A DNA stretch of 63,800 nucleotides. Source: an uncultured Muribaculaceae bacterium. GTDB taxonomy: Bacteria; Bacteroidota; Bacteroidia; Bacteroidales; Muribaculaceae. The DNA lies in the NCBI GenBank assembly GCA_947629175.1, contig CANRCT010000015.1:1-63800 (forward strand), written 5' to 3'. The notes under the pieces were generated by a model. It did not search any database. It saw only the letters and a program-made list of their open reading frames with translations, and was not told where the DNA came from. This document shows positions 1,110 to 47,426 of the stretch, piece after piece. Made by a program: the position numbers and the translations under genes. How positions within the stretch are numbered: the first letter of the stretch is position 1; each line of letters starts with the position of its first letter.

Positions 1110-4100
1110 TCAGAAGGGGAGGGTGTTGAGCTTCTTGTCGACAAGGAGGCCGTCGCGCACGGTGGAGGTGTCGAAGCGTGCGCCCTTGCGGCGTGCCTTG
1201 AAGCGGACAGTGAAGAGGCTGACGCCGCTGCCGCTCACTGCCGGACGCTCGCCGATGTTGACGAACGTCGGGTAGAGTTCGCGGTGGCCGTCGGTGTGGA
1301 GGCGGTCATAGGTCATGTTCTCCATGCCTTTGAGAGTCTCGGTGTCGGAACCGACGAATTCCCATTGTGTCTGGTCATAGGGGATGGCTACGCTGATGGC
1401 GTTGAGGGAGCTGACGGTGTCGGCGGTGAACTCTATGGCCAGAATCTCTTCGCCGTCGGCATCGGTCGAGCGCGAGGCCTTGTATCCGACTTTGCCTGCG
1501 AGCGGATCGGCGTAGTCGTCGGGCTCAACGCCTCCGTCGAGGCGCGTAGCCACGTTGGAGATGTCGAAGGCGTCGATGAGGTCATTGCGGTTGATGTCGC
1601 CGACGCTGACGTAGCCCTCGAAGTCGGAGTCGCCCCGGCGCAGGCCGGTGTAGTTGGTGTATGACATCAGGTCGGTGTCGTCGACCTTGCCGTCGGAGTT
1701 GATGTCGCCCGGGAGATAGGTTTCGGTGCCGGGCACCTTGAATACATAGAGCTCGCGTCCGCTGACGTAGCGGCCTACGCCTTCGTCGACGTGCAAACGG
1801 ATATAGCGTGCCTGCGGCTGATCCTTGAAGATGAATTCCTTGTCAAGGCCGTTGCGTTCCCAGCGGAAGGAGTCGACGGGAGTCCAGTGCTGCTTGTCGA
1901 GACTTATTGCTATGTCGCCCGAGAGGATGGTGCCGTTGCCGCCGTCCTTGCGCGGGAGGTAGCGCAGACGGTCGAGGGTGTTGACTCCCATCAGGTCGAT
2001 GACGAGATTCATCGGCAGGGCGTCGGCGCGGTAGCGCGAATGCATCATGTCGCCGCTTTCGGCGAAGTCGAAGAGGCGGCTTACCTCGAAGCCGGGCTGT
2101 ATCTCCTTGTCGGCCTCGCCGCGGATGCCGCGGATGGCAAACTCAAGCGGGTTGGACTTGGTGGTGGCGCTGAACTGGGTCCAGGGACCGGCTCCGTCGG
2201 CATTGACGGCGCGCACCTGCATGGTGTAGGGCGTCTCGGCTGTCAGATCGGCAAACGGGAGCGAGAGCTGGCGGATGTTGGAGTAGAGCAGCGAGTCGAA
2301 CATGATCTCGTAGGCGTCGGCTCCCTCTACGGCTTTCCATACGGGCGAGAGACTGTAGGCGCCTATCGAGTCGGCAGGAATGGAGGCCTCGGGAGCGCTT
2401 AGGGCTCCGTGCGACGAGAGCAGGTCGTTGCGGTGGTCGAAGCGGTAGCCGTCGACTGTTACTGCCACGGCGTTGTGGTTGACGTCGACCGGCGCGATTT
2501 TGACGAGAATCTGCGGATTTTTCTTAACGGAGAAAGAGGCGGCCGAAGTGCCGGGGGTGGAGAAACGGTTGAGCTCGGGAGCCTCGACATAAATCCATGC
2601 GTCAGTGGCATTTTTGAACGCCTCGGGTGAGGAGGCTTCGGCGAGACGCACCTTGCGTCGGCCGACGGTGGCCGTCACTTTCGAGGGTTTAGCGGTGGCG
2701 TTGATCACCAGTTGAGTCGATTTCATCGGGTCATATCCGTTGAACGAGCCCTGCGATGGATCGATTGTGACGGTGAGCCGCCCCGACTTAGCGAGATCCG
2801 AAACTATACGGGTGGTCACGGCCTCGCCGCTGCGGTAAAGCTCGGTGGTGCCGTCGTCGTCATATTCGGTCATTTCGGAGCGGCCGTCGGGATAGATCTC
2901 ATAGATGCGCTTCGTGCGGTCGATTTCCGAAGGATTGTTCGACGGGTCAGCCATCGGTATTATGGCTCCTGCGCGTACGAATACCGGCAGTTTCCATATC
3001 GGAGCCGGGAATGAGTTGAGCACGCGGCCCCCCTCGTAGCTCTGGCCGGTGAAGTAGTCGATCCAGCGGCCGCGGGGGAGGAATATGCCGTGGCGGATGT
3101 CGTTGCCGAGCGAATCGGAGGCTACCGACTCGTAGATCGGGGCCACGAGGAATTCGGGGCCGTAGAGATACTGGTAGCGTGTGGCGGCCGACATGGTGTG
3201 GCGGTCGGGATATTCGAGCATCATGGCGCGGATGAGCGGCTTGCCGTCGACAGCCTCGCGGGCGTATGTGTAGGCGTAGGGGAGCAGCTGAGATTTGAGC
3301 TTGAGATAGTTGCGGTTGATCGATGCGGCGGGTTCGCCGAGTGCGTGGGGATATTTCTCGTTGGAGCCCCATCCGTCCATGTTGAGCTGCATGGGCGAGA
3401 ATGTCTTCCACTGGAAGTCGCGGATATTGACCTGCGGGTTGCGTCCGCCGAAGATTCCGTCCATATCGGAAGTGATGTTTGGCTGTCCGGAGAGTCCTGA
3501 TCCGATGTAGGTCGGGATGTGGAAGCGGATATATTCCCATTCGCCGCCCACCTGGTCGCCGCTCCATATGCCGGCATAGCGCTGGGTGCCGGCCCATCCG
3601 TCGAGCGAGATGATGAAGGGGCGTGCGTTGGCTCCGTAATATGGCATGATCTGACCTACGTCGGCCACTCCGTTGAGGCCGAACGAGTAGCCGGCGCCGA
3701 CCCATGCTACGTCGGTCTTGAGCACGCGCACTCCGGCGTCGCGCACCTCACGGACTATGTCGCGCTGCAGCAGGGCGGGGATCCCCTCTTTGGGATGCAG
3801 GTCGCTCTGTGTCCAGAGGCCGATCTCCACACCCTTGGAGCGGGCATATTCGCCCAGCTGGCGCAGATTCTCGACGTTGCCGGTCAGGGAGTCGGTCTGT
3901 CCGTAGCCGGCGCCATAGCCGTCGTTGGGCAGGAGCCATCCGAGGGGCATGTCGTGGGCGGCATAGCGGTCGATGACGGCACGGGCGGAGAACTGATAGT
4001 TGCCCTTCTCGCCGTTGAGACTCTCGCGGATGCCTCCGTTGTCGCGCTGGCTCTCGCGGTAGCGCACGCCGTCTTCGAACATGATCCCCTTGCCGGTGGT

Positions 4101-5972: not shown

Positions 5973-6788
5973 TTATTTCAATAGTTTCCTGTCGTTGTCG
6001 CCGCTTTCCAGTACGCTCATCTGATGAATGGCTATCTGATTCAGCTTTACAAGCCGCTCGGTCTGCGTCATGCCCTGCTCAATGAAAACCGCATTGAGGT
6101 TTTCCATATTTGACAGGCAGATAAGTTCATTGATTGTAGCATAGTCGCGTATGTTTCCTTTGAGATCTGGATTAGCCTCGCGCCATTGCTTTGCCGTGAC
6201 ACCGAACATCGCTACATTCAGCACATCGGCTTCACTGGCATAGATAATACTCGCCTGTGCCTGAGTAATCTCCGCAGGGACAAGGTTGTGCTTTATAGCA
6301 TCGGTATGTATACGGTAGTTGATTTTCGACAACTCGCGCTTCGCCGACCAACCTAATAACCGCTGTTCCTTCGTTTTGAGCCGCTGAAATTCCTCGATAA
6401 GATAGAGTTTGAACGGCACACTTATTGCCGACCCAAACTCAAAAGCTATATCCTTATGAGCGTATGTGCCTCCATAACGACCTTTCTTTACTATTATTCC
6501 GATTGCATTCGTGTGCTCTATCCACTCCGAAGCACTCAGCACAAAAGAGGGCAAACCTGCACTCATTCTAAAGTGGTCAAATTCGACCACTTTGAAATCA
6601 GGGTTATGGATCAATTCCCATGTGCCGAGAAATTCAATAGTGTAGCGGTTTCGCAACCAGTTCTTGATTATATCGGCAGAACGGTTATCTCCCTCTTTGG
6701 CAGTTGCCATATCGGTGAGGGAGATATAATCCTGTTTCTCTAACGAGAGAACAGTGATAGGTGTATTTTGAACGATAATTTTAGACAT
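5973..6788 (-). CDS. KilA-N domain protein
   Basis: A KilA-N DNA-binding domain covers about residues 15-110: YISLTDMATAKEGDNRSADI, IKNWLRNRYTIEFLGTWE, SEWIEHTNAIGIIVKKGRYG, and the AHKDIAFEFGSAISVPFKLYL tail. The C-terminal ~150 residues are helical with no second domain I recognise. KilA-N proteins are typical of phages and nucleoid-associated defence or antirepressor genes. Here the gene is alone, without phage structural genes nearby. Its A/T-rich sequence contrasts with the DUF2400 and kup genes on either side, which suggests recent acquisition. The start MSKIIVQN is chosen because the -7 box lies over the more upstream ATG. Confidence 0.85.
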   Translation of the reverse strand: MSKIIVQNTPITVLSLEKQDYISLTDMATAKEGDNRSADIIKNWLRNRYTIEFLGTWELIHNPDFKVVEFDHFRMSAGLPSFVLSASEWIEHTNAIGIIVKKGRYGGTYAHKDIAFEFGSAISVPFKLYLIEEFQRLKTKEQRLLGWSAKRELSKINYRIHTDAIKHNLVPAEITQAQASIIYASEADVLNVAMFGVTAKQWREANPDLKGNIRDYATINELICLSNMENLNAVFIEQGMTQTERLVKLNQIAIHQMSVLESGDNDRKLLK

Positions 6789-28975: not shown

Positions 28976-29503
28976 TCAGTCGGTGATTTTCATCTGTCCG
29001 CTGAAGATGCGGTTGAAGTTTTCCTCTGCTTTAGGTGTCTCGCATGGATTTCCGATGGAGACTACACGTCGGGCTGAGTCCAGAAGCAGTACGAAATCCT
29101 TGTCGAGATCATCAGTCAGGCCGTTATTTTCAATAAAAGAAATATCTTTTCCGACGATAGCATGATCGTCGAAGTCATACATTTCGAGAATGTCTCTGGC
29201 TTCGTCGGTGTTTGTAGTGTTAATGACAAACACGTAGTCAATGCCGTCGCCGAAAGCGTTCTGCATCCGTCGCCGATAAACGCGCCAGTCGCCCATGTGG
29301 AGCTGGCATGAGGTACAAACGGGATTATCGATGTATCTGATGATTGTGAACCTGTAGGCGCTGCTGTCCGGTTCCGTCCTTTCCCACGTGATCTCTTTGC
29401 CGATCGTTTCAATTACGGCTCTTTCAATTCTCCGGTTCTTGCATGATGATGCAGCGAGAGTCAGGGTGCCGATCAGCACCAAGGTGTAGATTCTGTTGCC
29501 CAT
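28976..29503 (-). CDS. Thioredoxin-fold-like lipoprotein with CxxC (peptide/propeller island)
   Basis: 175 aa from MGNRIYT. An upstream in-frame ATG would overlap the propeller gene. A lipoprotein signal ends LAASSC, with lipidated Cys 21. The central segment FTIIRYIDNPVCTSCQLHMGDW places CTSC (C63/C66) at the end of a beta strand, as in thioredoxin-like thiol oxidoreductases. Then come YVFVINTT, HAIVGKDISFIENNGL and FVLLLDSARRVVSIGNP, the usual strand order. The ending is ...GNPCETPKAEENF. It lies 2 nt after the propeller gene. A role in disulphide handling of the neighbouring Cys-rich peptide is a hypothesis. The sequence is A/T-richer than the flanking housekeeping genes. Confidence 0.65.
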   Translation of the reverse strand: MGNRIYTLVLIGTLTLAASSCKNRRIERAVIETIGKEITWERTEPDSSAYRFTIIRYIDNPVCTSCQLHMGDWRVYRRRMQNAFGDGIDYVFVINTTNTDEARDILEMYDFDDHAIVGKDISFIENNGLTDDLDKDFVLLLDSARRVVSIGNPCETPKAEENFNRIFSGQMKITD

Positions 29504-29505
29504 CG

Positions 29506-30663
29506 TCAGCGGAATATCTGAAGCACCTTGCATCCGTCGTCCAATGCATTTTTGACGCTGTCGGGCAGCGTGTCGGCGTCATCGAGGTATCTGAGGATTT
29601 CAGGTGACAGCACTCCGATGATATGCCCCTCGCTATCAATATTCAAGGGAGTGACAACACTGTAAGCGGACATGTTTGCGCCGAATTTTTTCAGCCCGTG
29701 CCGTTTTGTTTTGGTATCGTTGCAGGAATAATAATAATTTCCTCGATTCTTGACGGTTCCAAAAATCAGTCCGTTGGAAGTTATGAGCGGACTGTCGTAA
29801 TATTGCATTCCATGTTTTTCTATTAATCCTTCTTCGCGAGCTTTGACGTAGTTGATTTTAGCAAGGTTGTCAATGGCTCCATCTTCAAAGTCTAATACGG
29901 TTTTGCCTGTCATATTTCCAATGAGGTCAAAATGATATATGGTGTCTGATGGCGAGGAGTAGTAAGTGATACAGTTGCCGTTTTTCCTGATAATGTCGTT
30001 GTTGAGAAATCCTCCCACACAACCTTTCGGATATTTCAAAATAAATTTTTTTGCGGTAAGATTGGAATCTGTTATGCAGATTTGGTATGTATTTTCCTCG
30101 TTTGGGAGAAGGTTGAACATGAAATTGCCGTTGTTAAGTCTGCAGAAAGCGTTGGCATAGAACGGCATTTCTGATTTTTTGATAAAATTGCCTGAAAGGT
30201 CGTATGTTAAAAGCTGCTTTCCAGCGTTGTTCAGAAGATATACTGCAGTAGAGTCAACATCACAATAATCGGAAGTGATGTATTCCCCGGGACCGTTGCC
30301 TCTTCTTCCATAACAAGTGATAGGGTTTCCATCGTGATCAAACGAGATTAATTTCCGGGCGCCCCACGCATCAAGAATAAAATACTTGCCGTTAGCGTCA
30401 ATTACTCTTGATATTTCGGAATACATTGTGGCGTCGTTTTCCTTTAGTATTACAAAATGCGGGGAAGGTAGTGTATTGATCGCGCTGTCGTAGAACGTCA
30501 TATTATATGAAATACTCAACGTGTCAACTTTACAATCAATTGACGATTGACGGGAAATGTTGCCGTTATGGTTGCACCCGGCAAGCCATGCCATAGAGAT
30601 AATGTAGAGGGTCAGCATGATGACTCTCTGCATTATCGAGAATTTACCTTTAGTCAGTTTCAT
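29506..30663 (-). CDS. 6-bladed beta-propeller lipoprotein
   Basis: 385 aa. A lipoprotein signal ends AWLAGC (C30, or C20 if translation begins at the second Met, MQRV). Propeller-type repeats include ISRVIDANGKYFILDAWGAR, KLISFDHDGNPITCYGRRGNGPGEY, VDSTAVYLLNNAGKQLLTYDLSG, HFDLIGNM and NIDSEGHIIGVLSPE. The R-G-N-G-P-G-E-Y blade motif is the hallmark of the Bacteroidota 6-bladed propeller family. Family members commonly sit beside NVEALA-type peptides, as here (15 nt upstream). It is probably surface or periplasm anchored; ligand unknown. The gene is A/T-rich. Confidence 0.85.
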   Translation of the reverse strand: MKLTKGKFSIMQRVIMLTLYIISMAWLAGCNHNGNISRQSSIDCKVDTLSISYNMTFYDSAINTLPSPHFVILKENDATMYSEISRVIDANGKYFILDAWGARKLISFDHDGNPITCYGRRGNGPGEYITSDYCDVDSTAVYLLNNAGKQLLTYDLSGNFIKKSEMPFYANAFCRLNNGNFMFNLLPNEENTYQICITDSNLTAKKFILKYPKGCVGGFLNNDIIRKNGNCITYYSSPSDTIYHFDLIGNMTGKTVLDFEDGAIDNLAKINYVKAREEGLIEKHGMQYYDSPLITSNGLIFGTVKNRGNYYYSCNDTKTKRHGLKKFGANMSAYSVVTPLNIDSEGHIIGVLSPEILRYLDDADTLPDSVKNALDDGCKVLQIFR

Positions 30664-30678
30664 TTGCTGAAGGATTGT

Positions 30679-30933
30679 TTAGAAACAATCTGTTTCAGTA
30701 CATACAGGATAGCCTGGCAGGCATCTGCACAATTTTTTGGTGTAGCCTTCTTGCGCGCATGGTTTATCATAGGATGGTCCATAGTTGTTGGCTGATTCTG
30801 ATTGCGCAACAGCTTCAATCGAGGCTACAACGAGGTCGGACGTTTCCTGTGTCGAGGTGGATTTCGCTGTCACGGCTGCGATCGCAGCGATCATGATGGC
30901 TGCAAAAATCGCGAAGTGAATTTTCTTTTTCAT
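30679..30933 (-). CDS. NVEALA-type small secreted Cys-rich peptide
   Basis: 84 aa. A basic start and hydrophobic signal (MKKKIHFAIFAAIMIAAIAA) lead into VVASIEAVAQSES, which aligns with the NVEALA motif that names the family. The mature C-terminus has five cysteines: PCAQ, KLCRC, PVC and TDCF. NVEALA peptides are a gut-Bacteroidota family without known function, often beside 6-bladed propeller lipoproteins. The gene heads a three-gene minus-strand unit in a markedly A/T-rich stretch. No double-glycine leader was seen, so it differs from bacteroidetocin-type bacteriocins. Confidence 0.8.
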   Translation of the reverse strand: MKKKIHFAIFAAIMIAAIAAVTAKSTSTQETSDLVVASIEAVAQSESANNYGPSYDKPCAQEGYTKKLCRCLPGYPVCTETDCF

Positions 30934-30964
30934 AGGCGAATTGGTTTAGAGATTAATACATTCG

Positions 30965-30972
30965 CAAAAATA
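30965..30972 (-). promoter_or_regulatory. -7 box of the peptide/propeller operon
   Basis: The minus strand reads TATTTTTG, 31 nt before the NVEALA-type ATG, in very A/T-rich DNA. A TTTG lies about 23 nt further upstream, slightly beyond the usual -33 spacing. Confidence 0.55.
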
Positions 30973-31053
30973 CGTAATTATAAAATAAAAATAATCAAAA
31001 AAAAAGATAATAAAAATTAAATGCTGATAGGCTTATCTTTTTTAATGTGTAAG

Positions 31054-47351: not shown

Positions 47352-47426
47352 TCGGGGTGAGAAGATTCGAACTTCCGACCACACGCCCCCCAGACGCGTA
47401 CTCTAACCTGGCTGAGCTACACCCCG
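47352..47426 (-). tRNA. tRNA-Pro(GGG)
   Basis: 75 nt without an encoded CCA. The acceptor CGGGGTG pairs with CACCCCG, discriminator A. D-arm TAGCTCAGCCAGGTTAGAGT, anticodon loop CTGGGGG (anticodon GGG) and T-arm GGAAGTTCGAATCTTC are all present. The C1-G72 pair is normal for tRNA-Pro. A -7 box precedes it and a strong terminator follows. Confidence 0.93.

Follow-up and report, generated by a model that had tools for sequence, protein, structure and literature searches.

Positions 28,976 to 30,972 on a contig of an uncultured Muribaculaceae bacterium (contig CANRCT010000015.1, assembly GCA_947629175.1) hold three adjoining genes, and the question they raise is what a cysteine-rich exported peptide of the NVEALA family has to do with a six-bladed beta-propeller lipoprotein and a lipoprotein carrying a CxxC motif. 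The window analysed is the whole stretch of 63,800 nucleotides in which these genes lie. A first-pass annotation had proposed that the peptide is secreted, that its disulphides are handled by the CxxC lipoprotein, and that the propeller is its surface or periplasmic partner, the three together forming a signalling or interbacterial peptide system. This interpretation is partly supported by the present analysis, and peptide secretion, processing and any activity are matters that we infer. With somewhat more belief than doubt, the trio is regarded here as a satellite cargo cassette (peptide, cognate propeller and thiol enzyme) belonging to a secreted-peptide system found repeatedly in Bacteroidales.

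Re-derivation of the open reading frames (ORFs), called with a greedy picker rather than a trained gene finder, recovered the three genes as they had been described, all on the minus strand and separated by 15 nt (30664-30678) and 2 nt (29504-29505). The first gene (30679..30933) encodes a peptide precursor of 84 aa with five cysteines, all in its C-terminal part, and scores 33.7 bits against the curated cut-off of 27 of the NVEALA hidden Markov model (HMM), PF14055; as scanned, the match spans only the first 50 residues, and most of the putative cargo lies beyond it. The second (29506..30663) encodes a lipoprotein of 385 aa that matches DUF5128 (PF17170) with 81.5 bits against a cut-off of 22.9, in keeping with the propeller first recognized from its sequence. 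The third (28976..29503) encodes the CxxC lipoprotein, of 175 aa. An exact motif, TTTG-N23-TANNTTTG (30965..30999, minus strand), which we take to be the Bacteroides promoter consensus, stands 31 nt 5' of the peptide ATG, so that the three genes would be transcribed as a single unit from one promoter, as had been suggested. The usual spacer of this consensus is shorter, about 19-21 nt; the pattern with spacers of 17-24 nt matched five times in the window against 0.18 expected in shuffles. The trio forms an AT-rich island, as claimed earlier, with a G+C content (GC) of 0.465 and 0.409 in its two 1-kb bins against about 0.6 nearby, and the genes themselves have GC values of 0.47, 0.42 and 0.49, whereas the 46 called window ORFs longer than 150 aa, two of the three among them, average 0.59.

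The CxxC lipoprotein matched no Pfam or NCBIfam family at E values up to 10, the Pfam thioredoxin families included. Its AlphaFold2 model, built with 52 sequences (pLDDT 87.3), shows a thioredoxin fold, as foreseen in the earlier description; Foldseek relates the model modestly to ResA and DsbE types and to peroxiredoxins of the AhpC type (TM 0.35-0.67 among the matches listed, the highest value by target length), and a profile search with the family reaches the sporulation thiol-disulphide oxidoreductase StoA (3erw, E 2.7e-6). The two cysteines of its CTSC redox motif (residues 63-66; 29306..29317, minus strand) are invariant in 24/24 and 52/52 aligned homologues, and in the HMM alignment they occur in 55/55 and 54/55, the motif being kept whole in 54 of the 55; the lipobox cysteine (residue 21; 29441..29443, minus strand) is likewise invariant in 24/24. 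Many longer relatives, one of which was scanned, are fused to DUF1573, and contig C38 of the window's own genome carries a free-standing gene of 96 aa that by eye resembles the DUF1573 part elsewhere fused to CxxC proteins.

Whether the three genes belong together was examined in two sets of relatives. In an order-wide survey, stretches around NVEALA and CxxC matches were taken, ORFs were called and HMMs were built iteratively, and these picked out 96 NVEALA, 56 CxxC and 151 propeller proteins from 1273 ORFs. Named genomes were scanned with the CxxC family only, using eight homologues as query and leaving out the window's own protein; the best 80 of 201 relatives, mostly from Parabacteroides and Bacteroides, gave 79 loci, which represent, among others, Parabacteroides species, Phocaeicola vulgatus ATCC 8482, Bacteroides fragilis, Tannerella forsythia and Petrimonas. 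At least five of these (L155, L157, L166, L191 and L214) apparently duplicate loci of the order survey, so the independence of the two sets is incomplete. An NVEALA gene was found no more than 6 kb from the CxxC gene in 70/79 named loci and a propeller gene in 71/79; within the same distance, peptide, propeller and CxxC genes occurred together in 68/79, of which 60 had them consecutively on the same strand in some order. These neighbour counts are affected by the many contigs that end within the locus, and by two loci (L204, L222) in which no CxxC gene was called; in named loci longer than 20 kb an NVEALA gene was present in 36/38. The propeller directly follows the NVEALA gene in 193/245 cases (duplicates included), and a Pfam-NVEALA match lies within 5 kb of 43/75 CxxC matches. 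The three grounds on which the first-pass annotation would have been given up therefore fail, because the NVEALA model matches the peptide, the trio is conserved and so is the CxxC pair.

The association also holds between genomes. Among 392 genomes of the order, 29 have NVEALA, 38 the CxxC family and 24 both (Fisher 7e-24; the counts retain a probably spurious NVEALA match of genome G053, situated in a 568-aa frame), and with 17 query genomes removed the association stands at 8/13 against 13/362 (2.5e-8). A subfamily of O-antigen ligases found in the richer loci described below occurs in 39/392 genomes, 24 in common with NVEALA (1.8e-23), or 14/19 against 14/362 once 11 query genomes are removed (3e-14). 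The CxxC, ligase and peptidase queries were drawn from loci near NVEALA or CxxC genes, which makes these genome-level tests partly circular. The window's CxxC protein as sole query matched 16/295 genomes, and of the 14 non-self genomes of the 392-genome survey that match it, 10 are positive for Pfam-NVEALA against 29/392 overall. Within the window's own bacterial family, six genomes gave neither NVEALA nor CxxC matches in these searches (one of the six has the ligase), and because of this the system must be patchy.

The genome to which the window belongs (2.94 Mb in 79 contigs) is rich in these genes. It has 14 NVEALA matches at E <= 0.001, nine of them over the cut-off, and a fifteenth found with a custom HMM in locus L236, thus at least 15 genes; 28 DUF5128 matches, 24 over the cut-off; and seven CxxC homologues including the window's, six of which stand beside an NVEALA gene. 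Contig C10 (L051) carries a full paralogous trio whose cargo and propeller are 54% and 46% identical to those of the window, and other copies are ordered CxxC, NVEALA, propeller. Genes of these three kinds are AT-rich in this genome, with a mean GC of 0.44 for CxxC, 0.45 for propeller and 0.49 for NVEALA genes against 0.59 for the other called ORFs. A repeat of about 85-225 bp, with copies 74-92% identical, lies beside several NVEALA loci of this genome (L045, L047, L052 and, at 3101-3400, L053), and may have to do with how the cassettes spread or rearrange; no copy was found in the window, which was among the sequences searched. As a separate observation, large TPR proteins of one family precede the CxxC genes of two other loci of this genome, L046 (8286-10184) and L054 (5785-7500), on the 5' side, and this family (TPRH) occurs within 6 kb of the CxxC gene in 7/79 named loci; they are possibly sensors of another type. 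An exported-looking protein of 121-123 aa that is not NVEALA, encoded near the CxxC gene in L054 (7736-8107), L173 and L203, is possibly an alternative cargo.

The shared AT-richness of the system genes, and the repeat near several of the loci, would suit the notion that an AT-rich hotspot simply gathers genes for small secreted proteins with no joint function. This notion is hardly credible in view of the cross-genome association, which survives removal of the query genomes, the trio in most named loci, the regular place of the propeller as the next gene and the covariation described below, and chance neighbourhood was rejected on the genome-wide association and the gene order. A phage or plasmid origin was also rejected: by tblastn a CxxC homologue taken from a different genome (L127) matched 4 of 72,556 plasmid records, all from Phocaeicola, and none of 50,697 phage records, and in a scan of viral contigs 0 of 43 pattern matches were confirmed. 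As far as this one query tells, the system appears to be mainly chromosomal.

Counting each unique sequence once, as was done for the motif, cysteine, subtype and covariation counts, 251 NVEALA proteins reduce to 244; 17 of these have no scoring motif and were set aside, and 227 carry one, mainly [N][VI]EALA and often followed by x-G-E. The last position of the motif is A, G, S or T in 227/227 (A 216, G 4, S 4, T 3), while the pattern used also permitted L, E and N there; every one of these motifs thus has the small residue at -1 that type I signal peptidase substrates have. In the window peptide the motif is the variant SIEAVA (residues 38-43; 30805..30822, minus strand), recognized by eye and by family statistics and found also in the paralogue L051, and it is proposed as the leader/cargo boundary at which the precursor would be cleaved. 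A double-glycine leader was considered and rejected: no GG ends the leader, the junction being ALA, often with x-G-E after it, and SIEAVAQSE in the window.

The putative cargo (residues 44-84; 30682..30804, minus strand) holds the five cysteines of the window peptide. Over the family, cargos have a median length of about 40 aa, and 7.9% of the residues that follow the motif are cysteines, against 1.0% of those that precede it (91 of 96 peptides). Among 207 non-redundant cargos, those more than 60% identical having been removed, which takes out relatedness only in part, the cysteine number is even in 176, odd in 30 and zero in one (binomial 2e-26). The excess of even numbers, together with the thioredoxin-fold model, lends support to the proposal that the CxxC lipoprotein handles disulphides of these peptides. 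The window's own peptide is among those with an odd number. Its five-cysteine layout recurs in the paralogue L051 and in L129 from another family, whose propeller shows only about average identity to the window's (24%, mean 22%). Cargos diverge far more than leaders: the 92 other peptides of the named loci, which leave aside a conserved subtype described below, have a mean identity of 0.21 in the cargo against 0.45 in the leader. By eye, two B. fragilis loci, L206 (8499) and L207 (8044-8490), have nearly the same cargo, with three differences, behind different leaders, and the L206 leader precedes a different cargo in L207, an apparent case of leader-cargo recombination at the NVEALA motif.

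The best evidence for a cognate partner comes from the propeller. Its AlphaFold2 model (36 sequences, pLDDT 83.1) is a beta-propeller, Cys30 is invariant in 36/36 aligned sequences, and the top Foldseek match is 4raa (E 1.2e-18, TM 0.70/0.76), followed by NHL propellers. Across 138 neighbouring peptide-propeller pairs, a partial Mantel test gave a correlation of 0.317 between cargo and propeller given the leader (0/1000 permutations as high), against 0.035 between leader and propeller given the cargo (49/1000); restricted to cargos below 60% identity (134 pairs), the cargo-propeller value is 0.263 (0/1000). Peptides with similar cargos (>40%, 51 pairs) have propellers 43% identical, whereas similar leaders with unrelated cargos (274 pairs) go with propellers 23% identical, which is the background. 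Because of this covariation, and of the background identity where only leaders are alike, the propeller follows the cargo. The earlier suggestion that it is the partner of the peptide, which it would then bind, gains support from this.

These propellers also bear on a different proposal, namely that cysteine-rich peptides bind a metal, haem or cofactor and that the propeller is a surface lipoprotein of the BtuG or XusB kind. XusB and BtuG do occur among the structural matches, at ranks 42, 44 and 49, and a transcriptome table for B. thetaiotaomicron lists BT0662 (O-antigen ligase) and BT0664 (six-bladed propeller) as lowered under iron depletion, -9.3 fold with P 0.132 and -4.2 fold with P 0.353, respectively (PMC10434189); these two genes would bear on the question only if they are part of an NVEALA locus. 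Such a role is improbable: neither P value is significant, 4raa and NHL-type propellers rank first among the structural matches, and the cargos vary strongly, with no common metal-binding pattern noticed in them beyond the even cysteine number.

Many relatives of the window locus are richer. Recurrent neighbours are a signal peptidase I, a transglutaminase-like lipoprotein, an O-antigen-ligase/TPR protein, parts of an RND pump, and regulators, and within 6 kb of the CxxC gene in the named loci the transglutaminase-like gene was found in 43/79, the signal peptidase in 30/79 and the ligase in 19/79. A typical order is a divergent regulator, then NVEALA, propeller, CxxC, NVEALA, propeller, transglutaminase-like protein, signal peptidase I, ligase, MFP and RND; few loci contain all these parts, and RND-type exporter genes follow in several. 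The signal peptidase (about 280 aa, PF10502) has Ser45 and Lys120 invariant in 13/13 aligned sequences. The locus type (E <= 1e-75) was found in 4/104 sampled genomes (G105, G106, G055 and G000), of which G055 shows an NVEALA-like peptide with the custom HMM and the other three are positive for Pfam-NVEALA; the query rows came from G105, G106 and G055, so only G000 is independent.

Some of these parts invite the idea of envelope decoration, in which peptides would not be set free but exposed on the cell surface or cross-linked to it. Peptide or glycan would be attached by the transglutaminase-like lipoprotein and the O-antigen-ligase-type enzyme, and the propellers would be surface scaffolds. 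Transglut_core is present in 8/15 and an F5/8-type C domain in 6/15 members of the transglutaminase-like family, whose profile matches carbohydrate-binding modules; the ligase joins Wzy_C with TPR, and the partner proteins are lipoproteins. The exporter genes of several loci fit less well, as do hypervariable cargos tracked by their partner, and in the window's genome these enzymes are missing from the surroundings of the peptide loci, the one on contig C5 excepted. Decoration of the envelope is thus judged unlikely, if less so than a role in metal handling.

Related loci also suggest what a signal arm might look like. A two-cysteine subtype of NVEALA peptide, C-x-G-x-G-[SDN]-[ILV]-x-C, adjoins a regulator in 36/42 cases against 21/164 for other peptides (Fisher 2.5e-19); the subtype was set by regular expression, narrow for this adjacency (variants falling among the others) and wider for covariation. 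The adjacency is firm. With the wider pattern, 34/34 regulators belong to one homology group, and by hydropathy 31/34 have hydrophobic stretches at the N-terminus and near residue 170-280, flanking about 140-185 residues; in a representative (L134) a Trans_reg_C domain lies close to the C-terminus. In 35 such peptides the mature part is as conserved as the leader (0.35 against 0.34), a similarity partly built in by the regular expression; outside the matched span mature identity is 0.28, against 0.21 for other cargos. Given CxxC, subtype and regulator covary with 0.37 (0/2000, 29 loci), and subtype and propeller with -0.02, which is suggestive of co-evolution with the regulator. Another two-cysteine subtype, seen by eye, lies beside a histidine kinase in six loci (L116, L118, L121, L139, L145 and L146), a response regulator following the kinase in four of them; these are from genomes G106, G206 and G398, of one family. 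All these data come from relatives, and the window locus has no regulator, so that the signalling part of the earlier proposal gains no more than indirect support, from a different, conserved subtype beside a membrane regulator elsewhere.

A tentative order of events can be drawn up for the cassette reading preferred here. The N-terminal hydrophobic helix of the precursor would take the peptide into or across the inner membrane, and the LxDLxLxNVEALA stretch would be the leader/cargo junction, cut there most likely by signal peptidase I; in the window's genome a candidate is the locus-type signal peptidase encoded beside the O-antigen-ligase/TPR gene on another contig. The CxxC lipoprotein, ResA/StoA-like, may help the cysteine-rich released peptide to gain or keep its disulphides, and the propeller lipoprotein would bind its specific mature peptide in the role of a cognate immunity protein, a carrier or a receptor. 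Passage across the outer membrane would fall to shared machinery, perhaps the RND-type pump in some richer loci. In many of these loci the conserved two-cysteine peptide possibly signals to the adjacent membrane-bound winged-helix regulator, and the variable NVEALA peptides would be effectors. The window locus is best seen as a satellite because the peptidase, ligase and transglutaminase-like genes are on other contigs.

Several results weigh against this account. At the window locus no regulator, signal peptidase, transglutaminase, ligase or exporter stands alongside; the signal peptidase and ligase genes are neighbours on contig C2, away from it, and transglutaminase-like genes are found on C6 and also on C5, where a further NVEALA-propeller pair lies nearby. 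The transglutaminase-like family was rejected as a specific marker, matching 196/392 genomes, and 15 genomes with the ligase and 14 with the CxxC family have no Pfam-NVEALA match. The window peptide has an odd number of cysteines. Ordinary signal peptides are cleaved much nearer to the hydrophobic region than the NVEALA junction, which lies a median of 23 residues past it, beyond the short distance of signal peptidase substrates, and the window peptide has a canonical-looking VTA/K site at residue 23; because of both, the NVEALA segment may remain part of the product. For StoA and ResA the known role is mainly that of a reductase, and the CxxC enzyme may by analogy reduce disulphides instead of forming them. 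Leader and propeller keep a small correlation of 0.052 (12/1000) where cargos are below 60% identity (134 pairs), and the Mantel tests ignore phylogeny. Finally, with near-duplicates out (24 loci), the covariation of subtype and regulator falls to 0.15 (77/2000), that with the propeller being -0.12.

Because of this weakening after de-duplication, a bolder version is rated lower, as doubtful: that Bacteroidota possess their own peptide communication-and-conflict system, with precursors cut at the NVEALA junction by a locus-associated signal peptidase I, a conserved two-cysteine pheromone for a winged-helix regulator with two transmembrane segments that senses the periplasm, a locus that this pheromone turns on, and, encoded there, disulphide-bonded NVEALA effectors each neutralised or bound by its own propeller, the window trio being a stand-alone unit. 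The propellers would then be an immunity or receptor class not described before, a conjecture that shares the doubt of the whole. The narrower view that all NVEALA peptides are ligands in cell-cell or envelope signalling, without antagonism, with propellers that tune or sequester them, is rather unlikely. It draws on the subtype-regulator adjacency, on the homologous regulators with their paired hydrophobic stretches and on the second subtype by the histidine kinase in one family of genomes; it is at odds with the majority of NVEALA peptides (143 + 6 of 206), the window's included, which are hypervariable and have no regulator beside them, with the excess of propellers over peptides in the window's genome (28 matches against 15), and with the weak covariation that de-duplication leaves. 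The variable cargos themselves may serve either antagonism or signalling.

Other features of the window may be noted briefly. By eye, the trio is flanked by genes for an M48-type metalloprotease and an endonuclease/exonuclease-type protein, neither of which seems to belong to it. Elsewhere in the window two genes are AT-rich as well (GC 0.45), at 1-720 and 5973-6788, and by eye presumably encode a YhcG/DUF1016-like nuclease and a KilA-N-like protein, types of gene typical of mobile or defence islands. A general scan of the window for promoters and terminators was uninformative (7 promoter-like against 3.8 +/- 2.1; 1 terminator-like against 2.8), and the sole Rfam match at the gathering threshold is a tRNA gene (47352-47426, minus strand).

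The families are known by name, and a literature search that covered few subscription papers returned no account of the system as such, no function for the NVEALA family and no use of the word NVEALA. The Pfam names of PF14055 and PF17170 carry no function either, and yet a single genome has at least 15 such peptide genes and 28 propeller matches. What is offered is a testable system, with a candidate junction, a thiol enzyme and a cognate partner for each cargo, to which richer loci add a signal peptidase and an exporter and some relatives a peptide beside a membrane regulator. If the proposal is true, Bacteroidota gain a peptide effector system, perhaps with a pheromone, and two protein families gain a function.

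Among known proteins, the window propeller resembles DUF5128 and PDB 4raa (BF0058 of Bacteroides fragilis) in family score and fold, and differs in that propellers of its type track the cargo of the adjacent peptide, 4raa being titled only a putative exported protein. The CxxC lipoprotein is like the extracytoplasmic thioredoxins of the ResA/StoA/TlpA type in its motif, lipoprotein nature, fold and StoA profile match; it departs from them in having no Pfam thioredoxin match, in the DUF1573 fusion of its long relatives and in its tie to NVEALA peptides.

As whole systems, class II bacteriocin loci have an inducing peptide, a double-glycine leader and a C39 peptidase-ABC transporter. The likeness lies in a conserved inducer-like peptide by a sensor together with variable effector peptides and paired partner genes; in contrast, NVEALA peptides have no double-glycine leader, the sensor is mostly a one-component membrane regulator and the recurring exporter is of the RND type, no C39-ABC transporter being present among the ten neighbour representatives scanned (no search was made with a C39 model). 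Polymorphic toxin-immunity systems similarly exchange cargo at a conserved junction and have linked partner genes, whereas NVEALA cargos are peptides of about 40 aa (median), and a review of those systems reports that no beta-propellers had turned up among immunity proteins (PMC3482391). Among the ten neighbour representatives scanned, DUF3267, a protease family of the next system, was absent, no search with its model having been made. The TMcin RiPPs (ribosomally synthesised and post-translationally modified peptides) of Gram-positive bacteria cluster genes for a precursor that contains a transmembrane helix, a membrane protease that takes off the leader, a CxxC disulphide enzyme and secretion (PMC13252029). 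They work in a comparable way with unrelated proteins: on one side a DUF3267 protease, the DsbA-type TmcD and an ABC transporter, on the other signal peptidase I, a ResA-like lipoprotein and an RND pump, the helix being retained in the TMcin product.

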